The notes beneath the pieces are model-generated. The model made no database searches, was not told the origin of the DNA, and saw nothing but the letters and a program-made list of their open reading frames with translations. Below are positions 47,569-58,920 of a stretch of 64,000 nucleotides of DNA, one piece after another. The translations under genes were made by a program, and so were the position numbers. Source of the stretch: Burkholderia sp. BCC0506 (lineage in GTDB: Bacteria > Pseudomonadota > Gammaproteobacteria > Burkholderiales > Burkholderiaceae). Where the stretch lies: assembly GCF_902833145.1 (NCBI RefSeq), contig NZ_CADFEN010000011.1, forward strand, positions 239,531-303,530, given 5' to 3'. The stretch's first letter is position 1; every line of letters starts with the position of its first letter.

Positions 47569-48147
47569 TTCGATCTTCGCTTTTTATAGTCGGGCGCCTG
47601 AAAGGCGGCGCCGTCTGCTGCACCAACGTTCTAGCGTACCGCGCCTCGCGCCGCTTGGGCCGATGTTTTTTTTCGATGGGTGTCAGTCGAAATATGCATG
47701 GGCGTTGTCGGCGGGATTACGGCTGCATAGCGTTGAGGGGCCGGACCGGTTAACCGGACAGTTCATCGCGTCGGACTGTCCCGGCTGCCCGGACGGCACT
47801 TCCCCAAGGGCCGGCTGCGCCGTGTGCGTGCCGGCCCGCCCGCTCATGCCGGTGCCGGCCCCGTCGCTTTTGGTGCAGTGCAGATTGCACATCCGTGACA
47901 CGCGGGGGAACTATGTTCGTCGGATGCGGCGCAGCATCGGCCGTGCGCGTCGGCGGCGCAGCGCGAGTGCATGTCGCATCGGCCATTGCACCGTTATGGT
48001 GCGAAATGCCGCGCGGGCGTGCCTGGCGCGGCGCCAAAAACAGGGGGATATCGACGGGAGCGAACACGGCACGTTCCTTGCAAAGCATTGGTTACGCCGG
48101 TCCGGCATGCGCAATGCCGGGGAAAACGATCGATGGAGAAAAAATCG
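47569..48147. other. intergenic region upstream of the ATP-grasp/transglutaminase operon
   Basis: About 580 bp without a convincing gene. Notable are the palindrome CCGGTTAACCGG (47746-47757) followed directly by GGACAG/CTGTCC arms (47756-47761 and 47776-47781). The promoter of the large downstream operon should be here. Confidence 0.4.
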
Positions 48148-49563
48148 ATGAAGCCATTCGATGAAATGCTGCAATCCGGCGACATGGTAAGGGCGCCTTA
48201 CGCGCGCCTGAAGCAATGGCTCGACACGCAGGATCCCGCGAGCCTCGCCCAGAAGGCCCATGACGCGGAAGGCGTATTCCGCAAGACGGGCATCACGTTC
48301 GCCGTCTACGGCGACGCGGAGGCCGCCGAGCGGCTGATTCCGTTCGACATCGTGCCGAGGATCATCTCCGGCGCGGAATGGAGCCGGCTGTCGCTCGGCA
48401 TCGAGCAGCGCGTGATGGCGCTCAACGCGTTCCTCGACGACATCTACCACCGCCAGGAAATCGTGCGCGCGGGCATCGTGCCGAAGCACCTGATCGCGCA
48501 CAACGACGCGTTCATCCCCGAGATGATCGACTTCCGGCCGCCCGGCAACGTTTACACGCACATCATCGGCGTCGACATCGTGCGCACGGGCGAGAACGAA
48601 TTCTACGTGCTGGAGGACAACGCGCGTACGCCGTCCGGCGTGTCGTACATGCTGGAAAACCGCGAAACGATGATGCAGCTCTTTCCGGAGCTGTTCCAGC
48701 AGGTAAAGGTGCGCCCGGTCGAAACCTATCCGCAGATGCTGCGCCAGTCGCTCGCGGCCGTGTGCCCGCCGGGCGGCAACACCGACAACCCGACCGTCGC
48801 GGTGCTCACGCCCGGCATCCACAATTCCGCGTACTACGAACATTCGTTCCTCGCCGACCAGATGGGCGTGCACCTCGTCGAGGGCAGCGACCTGCAGGTG
48901 ATCGACGGCCGTGTCGCGATGCGCACCACCGAAGGCTTCCAGCCGATCGACGTGCTGTACCGCCGCGTCGACGACGCATTCCTCGATCCGCTCACGTTCC
49001 GCCCGGATTCGGTGCTCGGCGTGGCGGGCATCATGGACGTGTACCGCGCGGGCAACATCACGATCGCGAACGCGCCGGGCACCGGCATCGCCGACGACAA
49101 GGCGATCTACTCGTACATGCCGGAGATCGTCGAGTTCTACACGGGCCGCAAGGCGCTGCTGGAGAACGTGCCGACCTGGCGCTGCGGCGAGGCCGACAGC
49201 CTCAAGTACGTGCTCGCGCATCTCGACGAACTCGTCGTGAAGGAAGTGCACGGTTCGGGCGGCTACGGGATGCTGGTCGGGCCGTGCGCGTCGAAGGCCG
49301 AGCTCGACGCGTTTTCCGCGAAGCTGCGCGCGCGTCCCGCGAACTACATCGCGCAACCGACGCTCGCGCTGTCCACGACGCCGATCCTGACCGACGCCGG
49401 CCTCGCGCCGCGCCACGTCGACCTGCGGCCGTTCGTGCTGGTGTCGGACCGGATCCGCATCACGCCGGGCGGGCTCACGCGCGTCGCGCTGAAGGAAGGA
49501 TCGCTGGTCGTCAACTCGAGCCAGGGCGGCGGCACCAAGGACACCTGGGTGCTGGCCGACTGA
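48148..49563 (+). CDS. circularly permuted ATP-grasp type 2 protein (COG2308)
   Basis: 471 residues from the ATG at 48148, which has GGAG 9 nt upstream. An ATG at 48133 is the alternative. The sequence follows the circularly permuted ATP-grasp family (DUF404/DUF407): IIGVDIVRTGENEFYVLEDNARTPSGVSYMLENR, VLTPGIHNSAYYEHSFLA, YRRVDDAFLDPLTFRPDSVLGVAGI, and NPPG-type nucleotide-site segments (NAPGTGIADDKAIYSYMPEI, VVKEVHGSGGYGMLVG). ATP-grasp enzymes couple a carboxylate to an amine using ATP. Comparative studies predict these form peptide or amide bonds, with no confirmed substrate that I know of. First gene of the operon. Confidence 0.9.
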   Translation: MKPFDEMLQSGDMVRAPYARLKQWLDTQDPASLAQKAHDAEGVFRKTGITFAVYGDAEAAERLIPFDIVPRIISGAEWSRLSLGIEQRVMALNAFLDDIYHRQEIVRAGIVPKHLIAHNDAFIPEMIDFRPPGNVYTHIIGVDIVRTGENEFYVLEDNARTPSGVSYMLENRETMMQLFPELFQQVKVRPVETYPQMLRQSLAAVCPPGGNTDNPTVAVLTPGIHNSAYYEHSFLADQMGVHLVEGSDLQVIDGRVAMRTTEGFQPIDVLYRRVDDAFLDPLTFRPDSVLGVAGIMDVYRAGNITIANAPGTGIADDKAIYSYMPEIVEFYTGRKALLENVPTWRCGEADSLKYVLAHLDELVVKEVHGSGGYGMLVGPCASKAELDAFSAKLRARPANYIAQPTLALSTTPILTDAGLAPRHVDLRPFVLVSDRIRITPGGLTRVALKEGSLVVNSSQGGGTKDTWVLAD

Positions 49564-49627
49564 GCCGGACGCGACCGCGCGCGCCGGAGCCGGCGCGCGA
49601 ACCGAACGAAGACGGAGTGGACACGAG

Positions 49628-50569
49628 ATGCTTCTGGGACGTACTGCAAGCGGGCTCTACTGGATGTACCGCTATATCGAACGCGCGGAGAACATCGCGC
49701 GCATCGTCGACGCCGGGCTGCGGATGGCGCTCACGCGCACGGCCGACGCGCCGGCCGAATGGTCGTCGGTGCTCGTCAGCTCGGGCGCGGACGACGGCTA
49801 TTGGCAGAAATACGACGCGTATGCGGCCGATACCGTGACCGACTACCTGCTGCGCGACCGCGACAACCCGTCGAGCGTGCTGTCGTGCATCGAGGCCGCG
49901 CGCTCGAACGCGCGGATGGTGCGCACGGCGCTCACGCGCGAGGCGTGGGAAAGCGTGAACGGCGCGTGGCTCGCGCTGCGCCGCGCGTTCGCGCAGCCGG
50001 TGCCGGAAAGCGAGCTGCCGGCCGTGCTCGACCAGGTGAAGCGCGAAACCGCGCTGATCCTCGGCAGCTTCTACAGCACGATGCTGCGCAACGAGATCTT
50101 CGATTTCGCGCAGATCGGCGCATTCATCGAACGCGCGGACAACACCGCGCGGATCATCGACGTGAAGTACCACCTGCTGCTGCCGTCGGTGTCGCACGTC
50201 GGCACGATCCTCGACAACTACCAATGGGAGACGATCCTGCGCTGCGTCGCCGCGCACCGCTCGTACCGCTGGGTGTACGACGTGCAGTACAAGCCGCTGA
50301 ACATCGCCGACTACCTGATCCTGAACGGCCGCATGCCGCGCTCGCTGCGCTATTGCTACGGGCGCGTCGTGTCGAGCCTGAACCTGCTCGCGAAGGATTA
50401 CGGCGTGACACACCCGTGTCACGACACGGCCACGAAGATCCTGCAAATGCTGTCCGATACCTCGGTCGAGCGGATCTTCAAGAGCGGCCTGCACGAGTTC
50501 CTGACCGACTTCATCGGCCGCAACAACAGCCTCGGGCTCGAAGTCGCCCAGGCTTACAACTTCGACTGA
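49628..50569 (+). CDS. alpha-E domain protein (COG2307)
   Basis: 313 residues, wholly alpha-helical. It begins LLGRTASGLYWMYRYIERAENIARIVDAGLRM, the conserved first helix of the alpha-E family, and contains SNARMVRTALTREAWESVN and ERADNTARIIDVKYH, rich in paired Glu and Arg. Its function is unknown. It always accompanies the circularly permuted ATP-grasp and is fused to it in the fifth gene of this operon, so the two very likely form a complex. GGAGTGG precedes the start. Confidence 0.9.
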   Translation: MLLGRTASGLYWMYRYIERAENIARIVDAGLRMALTRTADAPAEWSSVLVSSGADDGYWQKYDAYAADTVTDYLLRDRDNPSSVLSCIEAARSNARMVRTALTREAWESVNGAWLALRRAFAQPVPESELPAVLDQVKRETALILGSFYSTMLRNEIFDFAQIGAFIERADNTARIIDVKYHLLLPSVSHVGTILDNYQWETILRCVAAHRSYRWVYDVQYKPLNIADYLILNGRMPRSLRYCYGRVVSSLNLLAKDYGVTHPCHDTATKILQMLSDTSVERIFKSGLHEFLTDFIGRNNSLGLEVAQAYNFD

Positions 50570-50577
50570 GACTTGCC

Positions 50578-51561
50578 ATGCGACTCGCCATCCGACACAT
50601 TTCGCGTTATCAGTTCGACGAACAAGCCAGCCATGCGCTGCAACGGCTGCGGCTGCGCCCGCAGTCCGGCCCCGGGCAGACGGTGCGCGCGTGGCAGGTC
50701 ACGATCGACGGCGTCGAGCCGACGCTGTCGTACGCCGACGGGCTCGGCAACCGGATCGACCTCGTGCGCCACGATCGCGGCGCGAAGGACGAGATCGTCG
50801 TCGTGGCGGCCGGCGTCGTCGAGACGCAGGACCGCGCGGGCATTCTCGGGAACCCGGAAGGCTATGCGCCACCGTGGATCTTCGAGCGCGAGACCGCGCT
50901 CACGAAAGCCGGCGACACCGTGCGCGCGCTCACCGACGCGCTGCCGATCGAGCCGCACGGCCTCGACGCGTTGCACTGGCTGATGACGGAAGTGCACGGC
51001 CGCATCGCGTACGCGCCGAACCTGGCCGCCGACGCGCCCGTCGATGCGGAAACGGCGCTGCAAAGCGGCGAGGGCACGAGCCGCGACCATGCCCATGCGT
51101 TCATCGCGGCCGCTCGCGTACTGAAGATTCCCGCGCGCTACATCTCGGGCTACGTGCTGGCCGACAGCGCGATGCAGCGCATCGCCGACGCGAAGCAGAA
51201 TGGGGTGGACGTCGAGGCGGAGGAAGCGCTCGCGTTGCAGAGCGCCGAGGGTATGCAGCAGGCGCTCGGCGCGTCGCATGCCGTGCAGTCGCAGTCGCAG
51301 GGGCAGTCGCAGGCGGCGCTCGGCGCGCAGCCGCAGGCCGCTGCGCTGATGCAGCAGCCGGCCGGCCATGCCTGGGCCGAGGCCTATGTCGAAGGGCTCG
51401 GCTGGGTCGGCTTCGATCCGTTCATGAACCGTTGCCCGGACGAACGCTACGTGCGCATCGCGGTCGGCCTCGACCATCGCGACGCGCAGCCGGTGACGGG
51501 GCTCGGCGCGACGGCCGTCGCCGTCGAGATCAGCGTCGTGCAGACGCCCGAACTCGTCTGA
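50578..51561 (+). CDS. transglutaminase-like protein with Ser in place of the catalytic Cys
   Basis: 327 residues. The N-terminal beta domain (MRLAIRHISRYQFDEQASHALQRLRLRPQ) and the transglutaminase core are both present. The His (264, GHAWAEAYVEGLGWVGFDP) and Asp (280) of the triad are kept, but where the family has G-x-C-R-D the text reads GTSRDHAHAF: Ser168 replaces Cys. Between the nucleophile position and His264 lies an inserted stretch of about 70 residues rich in Gln and Ala (SQSQGQSQ). It starts 8 bp after the alpha-E gene. It is either noncatalytic, perhaps a binding subunit, or uses Ser. Confidence 0.85.
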   Translation: MRLAIRHISRYQFDEQASHALQRLRLRPQSGPGQTVRAWQVTIDGVEPTLSYADGLGNRIDLVRHDRGAKDEIVVVAAGVVETQDRAGILGNPEGYAPPWIFERETALTKAGDTVRALTDALPIEPHGLDALHWLMTEVHGRIAYAPNLAADAPVDAETALQSGEGTSRDHAHAFIAAARVLKIPARYISGYVLADSAMQRIADAKQNGVDVEAEEALALQSAEGMQQALGASHAVQSQSQGQSQAALGAQPQAAALMQQPAGHAWAEAYVEGLGWVGFDPFMNRCPDERYVRIAVGLDHRDAQPVTGLGATAVAVEISVVQTPELV

Positions 51562-51654
51562 CCCGCCGCGCGTTTCCGCCGAATCCGCCACGCCGGGCCG
51601 CCGCGTCGAAAGCGACGCGGCGTGCACGGTCGGCCCAACCCGATCCGAGCTCCC

Positions 51655-54600
51655 ATGTCCATCCACGTCGCGCTGCATCACACCACCCGCTATCGCTACG
51701 ACCGGCTCGTCAACCTCGGCCCGCAGGTCGTGCGGCTGCGGCCCGCGCCGCATTGCCGGACGCCGATCCTCGCGTATTCGATGACGGTCGAGCCCGCGCA
51801 GCACTTCATCAACTGGCAGCAGGACCCGTTCTCGAACTACCTCGCGCGGCTCGTGTTTCCGGAGCGCACGGAGCACTTCGAGATCACGATCGATCTCGTC
51901 GCCGAGATGTCGGTCTACAACCCGTTCGACTTCTTCCTCGAAGCGAGCGCGGAACAATACCCGTTCAGCTATGACGACGCGCTGAAGACCGAGCTCGCGC
52001 CGTATCTCGCGTGCGACCCGCAGACGAGCGCCGCGCCGCTGTTCCGCGCGTATCTCGACGGCGTCGACCGCACGCCGGCCGGCACCGTGAACTTCCTCGT
52101 CGCGCTGAACCAGCAGCTTCAGCGCGACATCGGCTATCTCGTGCGGATGGAGCCCGGCGTGCAGACGCCCGAGCAGACGCTCGAACTCGCGTCCGGCTCG
52201 TGCCGCGACAGCGCGTGGCTGCTCGTGCAGCTGTGCCGCCATCTCGGCATCGCCGCGCGCTTCGTGTCGGGCTACCTGATCCAGCTCACGCCCGACGTCA
52301 AATCGCTCGACGGCCCGAGCGGCACGTCGGTCGACTTCACTGACCTGCACGCGTGGTGCGAGGTCTACCTGCCGGGCGCCGGCTGGATCGGCTTCGATCC
52401 GACGTCGGGCCTGCTCGCCGGGGAAGGGCATATTCCGCTCGCCTGTACGCCGCAGCCGACCAGCGCCGCGCCGGTCGAAGGCCTGATCGACGAGTGCGAA
52501 GTGTCGTTCGAGCACGAGATGACCGTGACGCGCGTGTATGAATCGCCGCGCGTGACGAAGCCGTATACGGAATCGCAGTGGGACGCGGTGCTCGCGCTCG
52601 GCACGCAGGTCGACGGTGCGCTGGCGGCCGGCGACGTGCGGCTCACGCAAGGCGGCGAGCCGACCTTCGTGTCGATCGACGATCGCGACGGCGCCGAATG
52701 GAACACCGATGCGCTCGGCCCGACCAAGCGCGGCTATGCGACCGAACTCGTGCAGCGGCTGCGCGCCGAATACGGCGACGGCGGCTTCCTGCATTTCGGG
52801 CAGGGCAAGTGGTACCCGGGCGAGCAACTGCCGCGCTGGGCGCTGTCGATCTTCTGGCGCGCGGACGGCCAGCCCGTGTGGCACGATCCGTCGCTGTTCG
52901 CCGACGAGCGCGAGCCGTCCTCGTACACCACCGACGACGCGAAGCGCTTCATCGATGCGCTCGCCGCACGGCTGAACCTGACGGACGAATTCATCCGGCC
53001 CGGCTACGAGGACGTCTGGTACTACCTGTGGCGCGAGCGCCGGCTGCCGGTCAACGTCGATCCGTTCGACGCGCGCCTCGACGACGAACTCGAACGCGCG
53101 CGGCTGCGCAAGGTGTTCGAGCAGCAGCTCGACAGCGTGGTCGGCTACGTGCTGCCGGTGAAGCGCGTGGACGACACGCCAGGCCTCGACGGGCCGCGCT
53201 GGCAGACGGGCCCGTGGTTCTTCCGCGACGAGCGGATGTACCTCGTGCCGGGCGATTCGCCGATGGGCTATCGGTTGCCGCTCGATTCGCTGCCGTGGAC
53301 GGCCCGCGCCGACTATCCGTATCTCGTCGAGCGCGATCCGTTCGCGCCGCGCGACGCGCTGCCGGATGCCGCCGCCATTCGCGCCCGCTACGCGGGCCCG
53401 GCCGACGCGCCGCGCTACCTGGCCGGCGTGCATCGCGAAGCGCCCGCGCAGACCGTGATGCAGTGGCGCGACGACGGCACCGCCGCGAGCGCTCGCGCGC
53501 GCGCCGCGGACCCGCATCGCCGGCCCGAGCGCTTCGAATCGGCCGCATGGATCACGCGCACCGCGCTGTGCGTCGAAGTGCGCAACGGCATCCTGTACCT
53601 GTTCATGCCGCCGCTTGCCGCGCTCGAGGATTATCTCGACCTGCTCGGCGCGATCGAGCTGACCGCGCACGCGCTCGGCGTGAAGCTCGTGCTCGAAGGC
53701 TATCCGCCGCCGCGCGACGCGCGGCTGAAGCTGCTGCAGGTGACGCCCGACCCCGGCGTGATCGAGGTGAACATCCATCCGGCCGCGAGCTTCGACGAGC
53801 TCGTCGACCACACCGAATTCCTGTACGACGCGGCGTGGCAGTCGCGGCTGTGCAGCGAGAAATTCATGGTCGACGGGCGGCACGTCGGCACGGGCGGCGG
53901 CAACCACTTCGTGCTCGGCGGCGCGACGCCGGCCGACAGCCCGTTCCTGCGGCGCCCGGATCTGCTCGCGAGCCTGATCGCGTACTGGCACAACCATCCG
54001 TCGCTGTCGTACCTGTTCTCGGGGCTGTTCATCGGGCCGACGAGCCAGGCGCCACGTGTCGACGAGGCGCGCAACGACCAGCTCTACGAGCTCGACATCG
54101 CATTCGCGGAGATCCAGCGCAACAAGCTGCTGTTCGGGCAGGACATGCCGCCGTGGCTCGTCGATCGCGTGCTGCGCAACCTGCTGATCGACGTGACGGG
54201 CAACACGCACCGCAGCGAGTTCTGCATCGACAAGCTGTATTCGCCCGATTCGTCCACCGGCCGGCTCGGCCTGCTCGAACTGCGCGCGTTCGAGATGCCG
54301 CCGCATGCGCGGATGAGCATCGTGCAGCAACTGCTGCTGCGCGCGCTGGTCGCGCGCTTCTGGGCTGCGCCGTACACGACGCCGCTCACGCGCTGGGGCA
54401 CCGCGCTGCACGACCGGTTCATGCTGCCGGCGTTTCTTCAGATGGATTTCGACGATGTGCTGACCGAGCTGCGCGACGCGGGTTTCGGGTTCGATCCGGC
54501 GTGGTTCGCGCCGCACTTCGAATTCCGTTTCCCGCTGTTCGGGCAGATCGCGGTGAACGGGATGCAGCTGTCGCTGCGCGGCGCGCTGGAACCGTGGCAC

Positions 54601-55068
54601 GTGATGGGCGAGGAGGGCGCGATCGGCGGCACGGTGCGCTACGTCGATTCGTCGGTCGAACGGCTCGAAGTGCGCGTGACGGGGCTGAACGACAACCGGT
54701 ACGTCGTGACCGTCAACTGCCGCGCGCTGCCGCTGCAGCCGACCGGCACCGTCGGCGAATACGTCGCGGGCGTGCGCTACAAGGCGTGGTCGCCGCCGTC
54801 GGCGCTGCATCCGACCATCGGCGTGCATGCGCCGCTCACGTTCGACATCGTCGATACGTGGCTGCAGCGCTCGCTCGGCGGTTGCCGGTATCACGTCGCG
54901 CATCCGGGCGGCCGCAACTACGCGACGTTCCCCGTCAATGCCTACGAGGCCGAGAGCCGCCGGCTCGCGCGCTTCGTCGAGATGGGGCATACGCCGGGGC
55001 GGATGGAGGTCGCGGCTGCCGCGCCGAGCCGCGAATTCCCGTTCACGCTCGATTTGCGACGGCCGTGA
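51655..55068 (+). CDS. transglutaminase fused to DUF2126 putative amidoligase
   Basis: 1137 residues from the ATG at 51655. Residues 1-290 are a transglutaminase with complete triad: Cys183 (GSCRDSAWLLVQLCRHLG), His232 (DLHAWCEVY), Asp248 (GFDPTSG). The remaining about 830 residues are the DUF2126 region, e.g. LTQGGEPTFVSIDDRDGAEWNTDALG, GQGKWYPGEQLPRWAL, VEVRNGILYLFMPPL and GGGNHFVLGG, which has been predicted to be an amidoligase of the glutamine-synthetase-like fold. Its partners are the two ATP-grasp proteins. Confidence 0.9.
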   Translation: MSIHVALHHTTRYRYDRLVNLGPQVVRLRPAPHCRTPILAYSMTVEPAQHFINWQQDPFSNYLARLVFPERTEHFEITIDLVAEMSVYNPFDFFLEASAEQYPFSYDDALKTELAPYLACDPQTSAAPLFRAYLDGVDRTPAGTVNFLVALNQQLQRDIGYLVRMEPGVQTPEQTLELASGSCRDSAWLLVQLCRHLGIAARFVSGYLIQLTPDVKSLDGPSGTSVDFTDLHAWCEVYLPGAGWIGFDPTSGLLAGEGHIPLACTPQPTSAAPVEGLIDECEVSFEHEMTVTRVYESPRVTKPYTESQWDAVLALGTQVDGALAAGDVRLTQGGEPTFVSIDDRDGAEWNTDALGPTKRGYATELVQRLRAEYGDGGFLHFGQGKWYPGEQLPRWALSIFWRADGQPVWHDPSLFADEREPSSYTTDDAKRFIDALAARLNLTDEFIRPGYEDVWYYLWRERRLPVNVDPFDARLDDELERARLRKVFEQQLDSVVGYVLPVKRVDDTPGLDGPRWQTGPWFFRDERMYLVPGDSPMGYRLPLDSLPWTARADYPYLVERDPFAPRDALPDAAAIRARYAGPADAPRYLAGVHREAPAQTVMQWRDDGTAASARARAADPHRRPERFESAAWITRTALCVEVRNGILYLFMPPLAALEDYLDLLGAIELTAHALGVKLVLEGYPPPRDARLKLLQVTPDPGVIEVNIHPAASFDELVDHTEFLYDAAWQSRLCSEKFMVDGRHVGTGGGNHFVLGGATPADSPFLRRPDLLASLIAYWHNHPSLSYLFSGLFIGPTSQAPRVDEARNDQLYELDIAFAEIQRNKLLFGQDMPPWLVDRVLRNLLIDVTGNTHRSEFCIDKLYSPDSSTGRLGLLELRAFEMPPHARMSIVQQLLLRALVARFWAAPYTTPLTRWGTALHDRFMLPAFLQMDFDDVLTELRDAGFGFDPAWFAPHFEFRFPLFGQIAVNGMQLSLRGALEPWHVMGEEGAIGGTVRYVDSSVERLEVRVTGLNDNRYVVTVNCRALPLQPTGTVGEYVAGVRYKAWSPPSALHPTIGVHAPLTFDIVDTWLQRSLGGCRYHVAHPGGRNYATFPVNAYEAESRRLARFVEMGHTPGRMEVAAAAPSREFPFTLDLRRP

Positions 55069-55228
55069 TCGTCCGATGACAGGGCGGACGACGATGCGCG
55101 GTGCGCGACCTCCCGGCGGCCGCGCCGGAGTGCTAGGATGCGGGCAGATTGCGGCCGCGCGCCGCGGGAGTTTGCCGCCGGTGCGGCGGCGCGCCTGCGC
55201 GGTCGCACCCTGACGACGGAACGACATC

Positions 55229-57877
55229 GTGCCGCCCATTGACACCGACCATCTCGCCGCCCTCGACGCGATGCCCACGCTCTTCGATTCCGGCGCTCAG
55301 CCGGACGCCGCCGAACTGGCCGCCGCGCTCGCGGCGCCGGCGGCCGCCGGCCGCTACGACGAACTGCGCGGCAGCGCGGCCGGCCTGAACGCGCCCGCGC
55401 TCGCGCCCGCATGGCGCAGCTTCTTCACGTCGATCGGCAGCGACGGCGTGGCGGACCTCGACCGCCGCGCCGACGCGCTGCACCGGCGCATGCGCGAGAA
55501 CGGCCTGTTCTACCAGTTGCACGAGCAACGGGTCGGCGACGGTGCGACCGGCCCGTGGTCGCTCGACCTGCTGCCGCTGATCGTCACGCCCGAGGACTGG
55601 GTCGCGATCGAGCGCGGCGTGCTGCAGCGCGTGCGGCTGCTCAACGCGACGCTGGCCGACCTGTACGGGCCGCAGACGATCCTCGAGCGCGGGCTGCTGC
55701 CGCCCGCGCTCGTCACGGGCCACCCCGGCTACCTGCGCGCGATGCGCGGCGCGCGCGTGCCGGGCGATACGTGGCTGCACGTCGTCGCATTCGATCTCGC
55801 GCGCGGCCCGGACGGGCAGTGGCGGATCGTCGCGCAGCACACGCAGGGCCCGGCCGGGCTCGGCTACCTGCTCGAGAACCGGCTGATCGTGTCGCGGCTC
55901 TTTCCGCGCGGGTTTCGCGGGCTGCGCGTGCAGCGTCTCGCATCCGCGTACCGTGCGCTGCTGCAGAGCATGCAGTCGCTCAGCCCCACCGCGAGGAATT
56001 CGCGGATCGTGCTGCTGACGCCGGGGCCGCACAGCGCGACCTATTTCGAGCATGCCTATCTCGCGCGCTATCTCGGCCTCACGCTCGTCGAAGGCGGCGA
56101 CCTGACCGCGCGCGACAACCGCGTGTTCCTGAAGACGCTGAGCGGGCTCGAACCGGTACACGGCATCCTGCGGCGCGTCGACGATGCGTGGCTCGACCCG
56201 CTCGAACTGCGGCCCGACTCGATGCTCGGCGTGCCGGGGCTGCTGCAGGCCGTGCGCGCGGGCAACGTGCTGCTCGCGAACGCACCGGGCTCGGGCTTCC
56301 TCGAATCGCCGGCGATGCTCGGCTTCATGCCGCGTCTCGCGGAAAGCCTGCTCGGCGAAACGTTGACGCTGCCGGCCGTGCATTCGTGGTGGTGCGGCGA
56401 GGCCGCCGCGTGCGACGACGCGCTGCCGCAGCTCGCGCGCGGCATCGTGAAGGCGTCCTATCCGCCCGACGTGCAGGAAGGCGGCGCATTCGAACCGGTG
56501 ATCGGCGCGCGGCTCACGCAGGCGCAACTGGCGGAGTGGCGCGCGCGGATTCTCGCGCGGCCCGAACACTACACGGTGCAGGCCGACCTGCCGTTGTCGC
56601 AGGCGCCGACCTGGCCGCGGCCCGATGCGCCGGACGGCAACGGCAGCGCGCGCATCGTGCCGAAGCCGATGCTGCTGCGCGTCTTCGCGCTCGCGGATGG
56701 CGCGCAGCGCTGGCGGCTTCTGCCGGGCGGGCTGTCGCGGGTCGGCACGCGCGATGCGCTGTTCAATGCGCCGATGCCGCGCGGCGGCAGCACCGTCGAT
56801 ACGTGGGTGATGACCGAGGGCATCGTCGATTCGACGACGCTGCTGCAGACGCACCTCGGCCCCGACGACCTGGTCGAGCGGCCGCGCGCGATCGCGAGCC
56901 GCGCGGCCGAGAACCTGTTCTGGCTCGGCCGCTACACCGAGCGCGCGACCAACCTGATGCGCCTCGCGCGTGCCGCGCTCGAACGGCTGCGCGGCGAGGA
57001 CGACGTCGACAGCCCCGCGCATCTCGAGCTGATTGACACGCTGTGCCGCGACACCGGGCTGATCGCGGCCGACGCGCCGCACGCCGTCGATGCGCCGCGT
57101 GCGTTTCAGTACGCGCTCGCGACGTCGCTCACACGCGGCGCCGACCGCACGTCGGGGATCGCGTCGTGCCTGTTCGGCATGCGCGGCGCGGCTGCCGCGA
57201 TCCGCGAGCGGCTGTCGAGCGATCAGTGGCGGCTGATCGACGACGCGACGCAACTGTTCGCGGACAGCGCAGGGGAGCCCGAAGCGGAGGAACAGATCGG
57301 CAACGAGGCGCTGCAGTTGCTGGAACGCCTCGGCCTGCTGCTCGGCGCGATCACCGGCGCGCAGACCGACAACATGACGCGCGACGATGGCTGGCGATTG
57401 CTGTCGATCGGCCGGCAGATCGATCGGCTCGACTTCCTGTGCAGCGTGCTCAAGTTCGCGTTCGACGAAGGCGCCGTGCATCGGCAGGACGGCTTCGAGC
57501 TCGTGCTGGAACTGTTCGACAGCACGATCACGTTCCGTTCGCGGTTCCAGCGCGGCTTCGACGTCGCGCCGCTGCTGTCGCTCGTCGTGCTCGATACCGA
57601 CAACCCGCGCTCGCTCGGCTGGGTCGTGCAGGCGCTGCGCGGCCGGTTGACCAAGGTCGAGCGCAGCGAAGGCTATGCGCTGTCCGAGTTGGCCGAGGCG
57701 ATTCCGGACATTCCCGCATGGTCGCTGCACGAGCTGTGCGAGACCGCCGAAGGCGGCCGGCACGACAAGCTGCTCGCGGCGCTCGACACGACGGTGAAGG
57801 CAGTCTGGGAACTGTCGAACCGGATCGGTGAGCGCTATTTCAGCCACGTGCGCGAGGCGGGCAGGACGCTATGGTGA
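55229..57877 (+). CDS. fused circularly permuted ATP-grasp and alpha-E protein
   Basis: 882 residues from a GTG at 55229 (the frame has no better start nearby; an ATG at 55271 is possible). Residues about 40-530 are the ATP-grasp part (LTPGPHSATYFEHAYLARYLGL, LRRVDDAWLDPLELRPDSMLGVPGLL, ANAPGSGFLESPAMLGFMPRL), the C-terminal 320 the alpha-E part (ENLFWLGRYTERATNLMRLARAAL from about 560). It is thus a one-chain paralog of the first two genes of this operon. Relative to the first ATP-grasp the N-terminus carries about 60 extra residues. The end overlaps the last gene by 7 bp. Confidence 0.9.
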   Translation: MPPIDTDHLAALDAMPTLFDSGAQPDAAELAAALAAPAAAGRYDELRGSAAGLNAPALAPAWRSFFTSIGSDGVADLDRRADALHRRMRENGLFYQLHEQRVGDGATGPWSLDLLPLIVTPEDWVAIERGVLQRVRLLNATLADLYGPQTILERGLLPPALVTGHPGYLRAMRGARVPGDTWLHVVAFDLARGPDGQWRIVAQHTQGPAGLGYLLENRLIVSRLFPRGFRGLRVQRLASAYRALLQSMQSLSPTARNSRIVLLTPGPHSATYFEHAYLARYLGLTLVEGGDLTARDNRVFLKTLSGLEPVHGILRRVDDAWLDPLELRPDSMLGVPGLLQAVRAGNVLLANAPGSGFLESPAMLGFMPRLAESLLGETLTLPAVHSWWCGEAAACDDALPQLARGIVKASYPPDVQEGGAFEPVIGARLTQAQLAEWRARILARPEHYTVQADLPLSQAPTWPRPDAPDGNGSARIVPKPMLLRVFALADGAQRWRLLPGGLSRVGTRDALFNAPMPRGGSTVDTWVMTEGIVDSTTLLQTHLGPDDLVERPRAIASRAAENLFWLGRYTERATNLMRLARAALERLRGEDDVDSPAHLELIDTLCRDTGLIAADAPHAVDAPRAFQYALATSLTRGADRTSGIASCLFGMRGAAAAIRERLSSDQWRLIDDATQLFADSAGEPEAEEQIGNEALQLLERLGLLLGAITGAQTDNMTRDDGWRLLSIGRQIDRLDFLCSVLKFAFDEGAVHRQDGFELVLELFDSTITFRSRFQRGFDVAPLLSLVVLDTDNPRSLGWVVQALRGRLTKVERSEGYALSELAEAIPDIPAWSLHELCETAEGGRHDKLLAALDTTVKAVWELSNRIGERYFSHVREAGRTLW

Positions 57878-58920
57878 CGACGAAGGGCGCACCGAAAACG
57901 CCATCCGGTTCCGGCAACGCACGGCCGGCGGCAGCACCGGCCCCGACCGCGCCGGCCGCACCGGCCGCCGTCGCGCCAGGCCGGTTGCTGCGCGTCACGC
58001 ACGATACGGAATACCGTTACGCCGCGCGTGTCGAATCCGCGCAGCACCAGGCACGCCTGCAACCGCTCGCGACGCCGCGTCAGCAGGTGCTGTCGTTCTC
58101 GCTCGACATCGAGCCCGCACCGGAATCGGTCGGCACCGAACTCGACGCGTTCGGCAATGCGCGCGCATCGTTCGCGCTGAACCAGCCGCACGATACGCTG
58201 CTGGTGCGCAGCCGCAGCACCGTGCGCGTGATGCCGCCCGTGTGGTCGCTCGGCGCGCGCGGCGAGCCGCCGCCCGCGATCGCGCGCCCGGACGCAGCGC
58301 ATGCCACCGCGTGGGAGGCCGTGCGCGAGCGCTTGCGATTCCGTGCGGGGCAGCCTTACGACGCGGCGAGCGAGTTCGTGTTCGCGTCGCCGCACGTGGC
58401 GTGCGATCGCGAACTCGCCGCGTACGCGTCCGCCAGCTTCACGCCGCAACGGCCGCTCGTGCAGGCGGCGTGGGACCTGATGCGGCGCGTGCATGCCGAT
58501 TTCGCGTACACGCCGAACAGCACCGACATCACGACGTCGGCGCTCGACGCGCTGCGGTTGCGCAAGGGCGTGTGCCAGGATTTCGCGCACGTGATGATCG
58601 GCGCGCTGCGCTCGCTCGGGCTCGCCGCGCGGTACGTCAGCGGTTACCTGCTCACGCAGCCGCCGCCTGGCCAGCCGCGGTTGATCGGCGCCGACGCGTC
58701 GCATGCGTGGGTGGAGGTGTACGACCCGGCGTGGCCCGAGGACAACGGCTGGCTGCAGCTCGATCCGACCAACGATCGCGCGCCGGGCGACGACTACGTG
58801 ATGCTGTCGGTCGGCCGCGACTACGCGGACGTGACGCCGCTGCGCGGCGTGATCCGCGGCGGCGGCGCGGATCAGGAGTTGAAGGTCGGCGTGACGGTCG
58901 AGCCGCTCGATACGGCGTGA
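57871..58920 (+). CDS. transglutaminase-like protein
   Basis: 349 residues. A 40-residue Ala/Pro-rich N-terminal tail is followed by the same beta domain and transglutaminase core as its operon partners: Cys235 (GVCQDFAHVMIGALRSLGLAARYVSGYL), His278 (SHAWVEVYDPAW) and Asp298 (LDPTND). All three triad residues are in place, unlike the third gene. Bacterial members may act as cysteine peptidases on cross-linked peptides. Its start overlaps the fusion gene, and it closes the operon. Confidence 0.9.
   Translation: MVTTKGAPKTPSGSGNARPAAAPAPTAPAAPAAVAPGRLLRVTHDTEYRYAARVESAQHQARLQPLATPRQQVLSFSLDIEPAPESVGTELDAFGNARASFALNQPHDTLLVRSRSTVRVMPPVWSLGARGEPPPAIARPDAAHATAWEAVRERLRFRAGQPYDAASEFVFASPHVACDRELAAYASASFTPQRPLVQAAWDLMRRVHADFAYTPNSTDITTSALDALRLRKGVCQDFAHVMIGALRSLGLAARYVSGYLLTQPPPGQPRLIGADASHAWVEVYDPAWPEDNGWLQLDPTNDRAPGDDYVMLSVGRDYADVTPLRGVIRGGGADQELKVGVTVEPLDTA

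Follow-up and report, generated by a model that had tools for sequence, protein, structure and literature searches.

A six-gene ATP-grasp, transglutaminase and DUF2126 cluster of Burkholderia behind a predicted NtrC/sigma54 promoter

What occasion calls for a run of genes that sets predicted amide-bond ligases beside transglutaminase-fold proteins? The question is raised by 64,000 nucleotides of Burkholderia sp. BCC0506 (contig NZ_CADFEN010000011.1, positions 239,531 to 303,530; hereafter the window), which carry six genes in one direction, encoding a circularly permuted ATP-grasp protein (g1), an Alpha-E protein (g2), a transglutaminase-fold (TG) protein (g3), a TG domain fused to DUF2126 (g4), an ATP-grasp/Alpha-E fusion (g5) and a second TG-like protein (g6). 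We find a putative NtrC/sigma54 promoter in front of g1, and sigma54-type promoters are predicted before related operons in many genera, so the question of the substrate becomes directly testable under nitrogen limitation. Systems of this kind were predicted in 2009, and what is added here is a sharper, testable physiological context. The reading that we favour, with somewhat less than even confidence, is that the cluster is a nitrogen-limitation response system that would salvage nitrogen from amines, peptides or proteins by conjugation followed by release.

Predicted promoter and published nitrogen control

Upstream of g1 is a palindrome, GCACC-N5-GGTGC (47988..48002, + strand), which resembles an NtrC box and is the sole exact match to that pattern in the window. 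It is followed by a candidate sigma54 -24/-12 promoter, cGGCACG-N4-TTGCA (48067..48082, + strand), 81 bp before the g1 start and conserved in the genus; the consensus used was GGcacg-N4-ttGC (PMC5491218). As a composite, with the two elements 45–75 bp apart, the arrangement occurs exactly once per genome in 11/11 genus genomes, and a reversed control pattern occurs in none of the 11. It lies directly ahead of g1 in nine of them. In G212 it precedes a second stretch of g1-g2 type genes (L260, G212:C3), the main copy being cut by a contig end, and in G267 it falls in a stretch with no family gene, some 300 bases short of the end of contig C1. B. cenocepacia CMCC(B)23006 carries the composite along with the six genes. 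Two genus members have a second stretch of g1-g3 type genes; the reading frames of L260 look interrupted, and in L261 (G267:C13) the TG protein keeps its Cys.

We scored the same kind of site at operon heads elsewhere, taking as heads those g1, g3 or g4 genes for which at least 230 bp of sequence was present and the preceding 300 bp held no family gene on the same strand (n = 103, drawn from 80 named loci and the window, with starts estimated from alignment to the window protein). Candidate sites in the 220 bp before each head were required to have GG and GC and were scored on 11 consensus positions. Sites matching at least 9/11 positions are present at 87/103 heads and, on the reverse strand, where divergent heads share a region, at 21; 100 resamplings of each region from its own dinucleotide chain average 7.3 and never exceed 13. 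At 10/11 the count is 59/103, compared with 7 on the reverse strand and a resampled mean of 1.2 (maximum 4). When heads are grouped by taxon label and gene, 53/66 groups have at least one head at 9/11, and 40/66 at 10/11. An alternative sigma54 score, applied to loci L034–L147, L207–L246 and the window with a background of 3000 random stretches, identifies 33/79 g1 heads and 28/99 g4 heads, compared with 1.3% of random stretches, and NtrC-like boxes at 9/10 are found at 28/79 g1 heads, compared with 7.1%.

This predicted conservation across genera extends published expression data. In B. cenocepacia H111, mutation of ntrC is reported to lower expression of I35_5080-83, the orthologues of g1-g4 with the same order and families, by a factor of 6 to 9; co-regulated systems in this strain include those for polyamines, dipeptides and urea (PMC5491218). 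In Pseudomonas putida, PP_2685 and PP_2688 are reported to rise by 4.44 and 3.99 log2 units on nitrate relative to ammonium (PMC8050072), likely NtrB/NtrC control has been stated for PP_2685-2688 (PMC7801951), and nitrogen limitation raises PP_2685-2687 together with the neighbouring PP_2689, described as a putative endoribonuclease (PMC3325844). Among the matches listed from the open-licence literature, none reports that DUF2126 operons are generally under sigma54 control, and the term 'DUF2126' does not occur in the open-licence literature searched. The promoter, the published NtrC dependence (PMC5491218), and the two-module structure and missing Anbu partner described below all go beyond the sequence-only reading from which this work started.

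Composition of the six proteins

The domain content and the cluster ends given in that reading agree with ours, and all six assignments are far above Pfam cut-offs. Gene g1 (48148..49563, + strand, as are all six; PF14403 550 bits, PF04174 487 bits) starts at an ATG at 48148 with GGAG at about 48136, and is followed by g2 (49628..50569; PF04168, 306 bits), g3 (50578..51561; PF01841 65.6 bits, PF08379 60.4 bits), g4 (51655..55068, assigned by Pfam), g5 (55229..57877, assigned by Pfam and motif comparison) and g6 (57871..58920; PF01841, PF08379), whose stop ends at 58920. The same genes stand in the same order in B. cenocepacia CMCC(B)23006 at 89–98.5% identity, and g4 matches a B. cenocepacia record at 97.1% protein identity; the window genome is 7.29 Mb. 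Since this order is kept, and since g5 and g6 are near g4 in most loci, we do not regard the arrangement as chance. The sequence-only reading had inferred one operon from small gaps and two overlaps. The gaps are there (64, 8, 93 and 160 bp at g1/g2, g2/g3, g3/g4 and g4/g5), but there is a single overlap, g5/g6 at 57871-57877, and while adjacency and order hold, a single transcription unit is unproven because of the 160-bp gap before g5. The highest 19-residue Kyte-Doolittle mean among the six proteins is 1.34, with no strongly hydrophobic stretch, and the products therefore look cytosolic.

Bond-making and bond-cutting folds do occur together, as had been proposed, although not every member of each class retains its motifs. 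In g1 the residues E156, D157, N158, K365, GGYG 371-374, D425 and N456-S-S-Q459 are invariant in 22/22 proteins, and the protein matches PDB 3n6x, an entry titled putative glutathionylspermidine synthase, over nearly its full length (831 bits). In glutathione synthetases the Glu and Asn of this motif are metal ligands, and g1 is probably an active ATP-grasp ligase. Of 46 proteins of the g5 family, by contrast, none has the matching residue at E156, N158, D425 or N456, and none retains the complete GGYG; at the other motif places K365 is Lys in 32/46, D157 is Asp in 18/46 and Q459 is Gln in 1/46. The ATP-grasp part of g5 thus looks like a pseudo-enzyme, and the assignment of ATP-grasp as a bond-making type stands for g1 but not for g5. 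A related ATP-grasp is reported to cleave ATP, with no substrate reported for it (PMC6376114).

The three TG-fold proteins divide similarly. A Cys-His-Asp triad is present in 40/40 sampled g4 domains (C183, H232 and D248 in the window) and in 130/130 g6-type rows (Cys235-His278-Asp298 in g6), Anbu-type TGs among them, after removal of duplicates and of rows shorter than 200 residues, one of which (L162/L219, Anbu-type) has Ser. In g3 the nucleophile position is Ser168, with His264 and Asp280 kept, so that of three proposed transglutaminases the g4 N-terminal domain and g6 stand with their catalytic Cys and g3 does not. All 12 distinct Burkholderia sequences, that of the window among them, have this Ser-His-Asp set, as do 2/2 from Achromobacter; in another genus member (G267) a diverged relative of g3 keeps Cys. 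The change is not supported as a result of Anbu loss: two Achromobacter genomes have a Ser-type TG next to DUF2126 and have retained Anbu, the Anbu-operon TG at L162/L219 also has Ser, and that genus relative has Cys. The ratio of nonsynonymous to synonymous substitution (dN/dS) between the window and seven relatives is 0.03–0.23 across all six genes, with 0.16–0.20 for g3 and 0.06–0.15 for g5, which argues that both of these odd proteins are kept by selection.

The DUF2126 domain of g4 has, by structure comparison of its predicted model, a glutamine-synthetase-like fold, and it is probably an ATP-dependent carboxylate-amine ligase. It shares this fold with amide ligases of the glutamine synthetase (GS) superfamily (GlnA, GmaS, 1-naphthylamine GS and YbdK), to which it is about 10% identical and from which it differs by large insertions and the fused N-terminal TG domain. 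As judged by motifs and folds, the set would thus comprise one probably active ATP-grasp ligase, one probable ligase of GS fold, two TG-type cysteine domains, and three members that appear to have no standard catalytic set (Alpha-E, the pseudo-ATP-grasp/Alpha-E fusion and the Ser-TG).

Two modules and the missing Anbu

The gene-neighbourhood comparison that had been suggested was carried out. DUF2126 is found in 46/150 genomes of the phylum and 51/120 of the family, including 11/11 of the genus, and g4 is 56–71% identical to its counterparts in 21 phylum relatives. In 31/34 phylum loci and 69/80 named loci both g5 and g6 are found no more than 6 kb from g4, several of the other loci ending at contig ends. 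Together, g1 and g2 are less regular companions, both lying within 9 kb of g4, before, after or opposite it, in 19/34 and 35/80 loci, where many loci are cut off by the end of a contig. Elsewhere in the Burkholderiaceae the order g1-g2-TG is followed by Anbu in 16/19 loci (L159–L177, with 1.5-kb flanks), and the TG at these loci has Cys in 18/19 and Ser in 1/19.

A profile search finds Anbu in 73/120 family genomes and in 0/11 genus genomes, which rules out a copy hidden elsewhere in the genome; Anbu was also not found in Burkholderia sp. TSV86. The Pfam proteasome family is unsuitable as an Anbu probe, since it gives no match to true Anbu, PDB 5loy and others being the entries that match, and its one match in the window genome we take to be HslV. 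DUF2126 is not a replacement that excludes Anbu, because Anbu is also present in 33 of the 40 family genomes outside the genus that have DUF2126; the remaining seven all belong to one genus (g112). The g1-g2-TG block and the DUF2126 block are therefore two modules that are not mutually exclusive. Among the matches listed, Burkholderia g1 and g2 form long separate branches in trees, so descent of g1-g2-g3 from an Anbu operon is possible, though unproven.

Iyer, Abhiman, Burroughs and Aravind reportedly predicted in 2009 an ATP-grasp/Alpha-E/transglutaminase/DUF2126 peptide-synthesis system, said to comprise one active and one inactive ATP-grasp and an associated NTN-hydrolase peptidase (Anbu). 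The cluster matches it in bringing together a circularly permuted ATP-grasp, an Alpha-E protein, a TG and a TG-DUF2126 fusion and, as far as motif residues go, in the pairing of an intact g1 with a degenerate g5. It differs in that this genus has no Anbu peptidase and has an extra Ser-type TG, and in that the six genes run together behind one predicted NtrC/sigma54 promoter. With the Anbu operons of P. putida (PP_2685-2688), Y. bercovieri and the Burkholderiaceae loci L159–L177 it shares the order ATP-grasp, Alpha-E, TG and nitrogen control, but in place of Anbu the DUF2126 block follows, and g1 and g2 lie on the separate branches mentioned. The Burkholderia arrangement is thus one in which the system persists under purifying selection without the proteasome-like protein on which two published accounts of the Anbu operon are centred (PMC6376114, PMC5666114).

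Possible roles under nitrogen limitation

In the salvage reading, phosphorylated NtrC and sigma54 RNA polymerase would turn on g1-g4, and perhaps g5-g6, when nitrogen is short. The g1 ATP-grasp, with its glutathione-synthetase/YgiC-like fold, and the DUF2126 domain of g4 would then join carboxylates to amines at the expense of ATP, and the Cys-His-Asp TG domains of g4 and g6 would cut or transfer the resulting amide. Both g2 and g5 could serve as structural or regulatory partners, and g3 as a substrate-holding subunit or altered hydrolase. Taken together, these steps would form a cycle of conjugation and release that recovers nitrogen by a logic like that of the gamma-glutamylation routes for amines; we infer its chemistry, substrate class, division of labour and salvage role from domains, motifs and regulation.

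Several observations weigh against this reading or its parts. NtrC control is no proof of a salvage role, and the system has no known substrate or phenotype. Within the window alone neither promoter element is rarer than chance, and singly each is unremarkable because 5.2 matches to the NtrC-box pattern with one mismatch allowed and 7.7 to the sigma54 site are expected there, where 3 and, at up to two mismatches, a single one are found. Sixteen of the 103 heads score below 9/11, among them heads from Serratia, Marinobacter, Accumulibacter, and Acidobacteria and Azospirillaceae metagenome-assembled genomes, both Caballeronia heads (g1 and g4) and both heads of a Paraburkholderia locus (L107). 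With the alternative score no site is found at 19 g5 heads or 9 Anbu heads, and none was seen when a sigma54 site was looked for before g5 in the window. NtrC-like boxes are just mildly enriched at g4 heads (18/99, compared with 7.1% of random stretches), and another activator may therefore act there. The published account of I35_5080-83 concerns expression and names the orthologues of g1-g4; the next two locus tags, corresponding to g5 and g6, do not appear in its main text (PMC5491218). The g4 model is moderate (pLDDT 72.5, pTM 0.64), its E-values to glutamine synthetase with Foldseek alone are weak (~0.05), and a common fold is no proof of activity. Proteins of the Yersinia Anbu operon are reported to form no detectable complex, and Anbu to cut no tested peptide (PMC6376114).

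The cluster might instead make a small peptide or amide, such as a storage compound, osmolyte, signal or secondary metabolite, under nitrogen limitation. Glutathione-synthetase-like ATP-grasps do produce small peptides, and the related fold Cp1B is reported to form a small-molecule amide in E-64 biosynthesis (PMC12568646). We nevertheless think this rather unlikely, as nitrogen would hardly be spent on a product during its shortage, and the wide distribution and high conservation of DUF2126 and g4 suggest primary metabolism. In a comparison of 114 loci (L034–L147), with open reading frames (ORFs) of at least 80 or 90 aa called mechanically, no export, tailoring or precursor gene recurs, a HlyD-type gene following g6 in 1/114; the earlier claims that the cluster encodes no export or precursor and has no known product are accordingly borne out, the latter within the open-licence literature searched. 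A role in catabolism of one specific external nitrogen source (an amide, polyamine conjugate or peptide), as opposed to general salvage, also seems unlikely to us. It would suit the NtrC regulon, whose members are typically source-specific, as with the systems co-regulated in H111 (PMC5491218), and in 12/114 loci a RidA-like gene (PF14588 in one scanned representative) stands downstream of g6, in the same orientation and no more than 400 bp away. Against it, in the clusters listed no transporter is a recurrent neighbour of the block, where types other than ABC-ATPases were not searched one by one, and relatives of one representative ABC-ATPase come within 400 bp of family genes in only 2/114 loci.

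A third possibility, which we rate as doubtful, is protein tagging during nitrogen starvation, in which the GS-fold ligase and the ATP-grasp would attach a peptide or glutamyl tag to proteins in the manner of actinobacterial pupylation, and TG-fold enzymes, with Anbu where present, would strip off the tag or break down the protein that bears it. The Pup ligase shares the superfamily fold of glutamine synthetase, and the GS-like fold of DUF2126, the nitrogen control of the cluster and the proteasome-like Anbu adjoining the related operon in other Burkholderiaceae all fit. Tagging has also been proposed for the Anbu operon (PMC6376114). On the other side, a peptide-synthesis role of Anbu has been held less likely than one in protein degradation (PMC5666114), the cluster has no AAA+ unfoldase, this genus has no Anbu, and the ORFs next to the clusters, compared down to 80–90 aa, include no recurrent tag gene, although one shorter than that would be missed. 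More speculative still, and in our view improbable, is a proteasome-free, pupylation-like conjugation in Gram-negative bacteria, induced by nitrogen starvation, in which DUF2126 and g1 would mark proteins or amines with a glutamyl group or a peptide, removal of the mark would fall to the Cys-type TGs, and in Burkholderia the Ser-TG would be a reader or a serine-type hydrolase replacing the lost Anbu chamber.

Among neighbouring genes, the RidA-like gene is exemplified by L111:17457-17948, its 12 loci being mostly in Comamonadaceae; the putative endoribonuclease PP_2689 is likewise listed with PP_2685-2687 in P. putida. A putative zinc metallopeptidase (PF15887 in one scanned representative) has a family gene no more than 400 bp away in 10/114 loci (for example L095:17804-18952 and L088), and is ruled out as a regular part of the block, as it stands directly after g6 on the same strand in two Achromobacter loci only. 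In the window, a gene for a PgaA-like outer-membrane protein (PF21197, 41949-44600, - strand), probably for poly-N-acetylglucosamine export, lies to the left of the cluster, and a divergent gene for a LysR-type regulator (PF03466, PF00126; 46573-47568, - strand) just upstream. On the other side, a short + strand ORF from about 59099 lies between g6 and a convergent alpha/beta hydrolase gene (PF00561, 59433-60554, - strand) with motifs that by eye resemble those of proline iminopeptidases.
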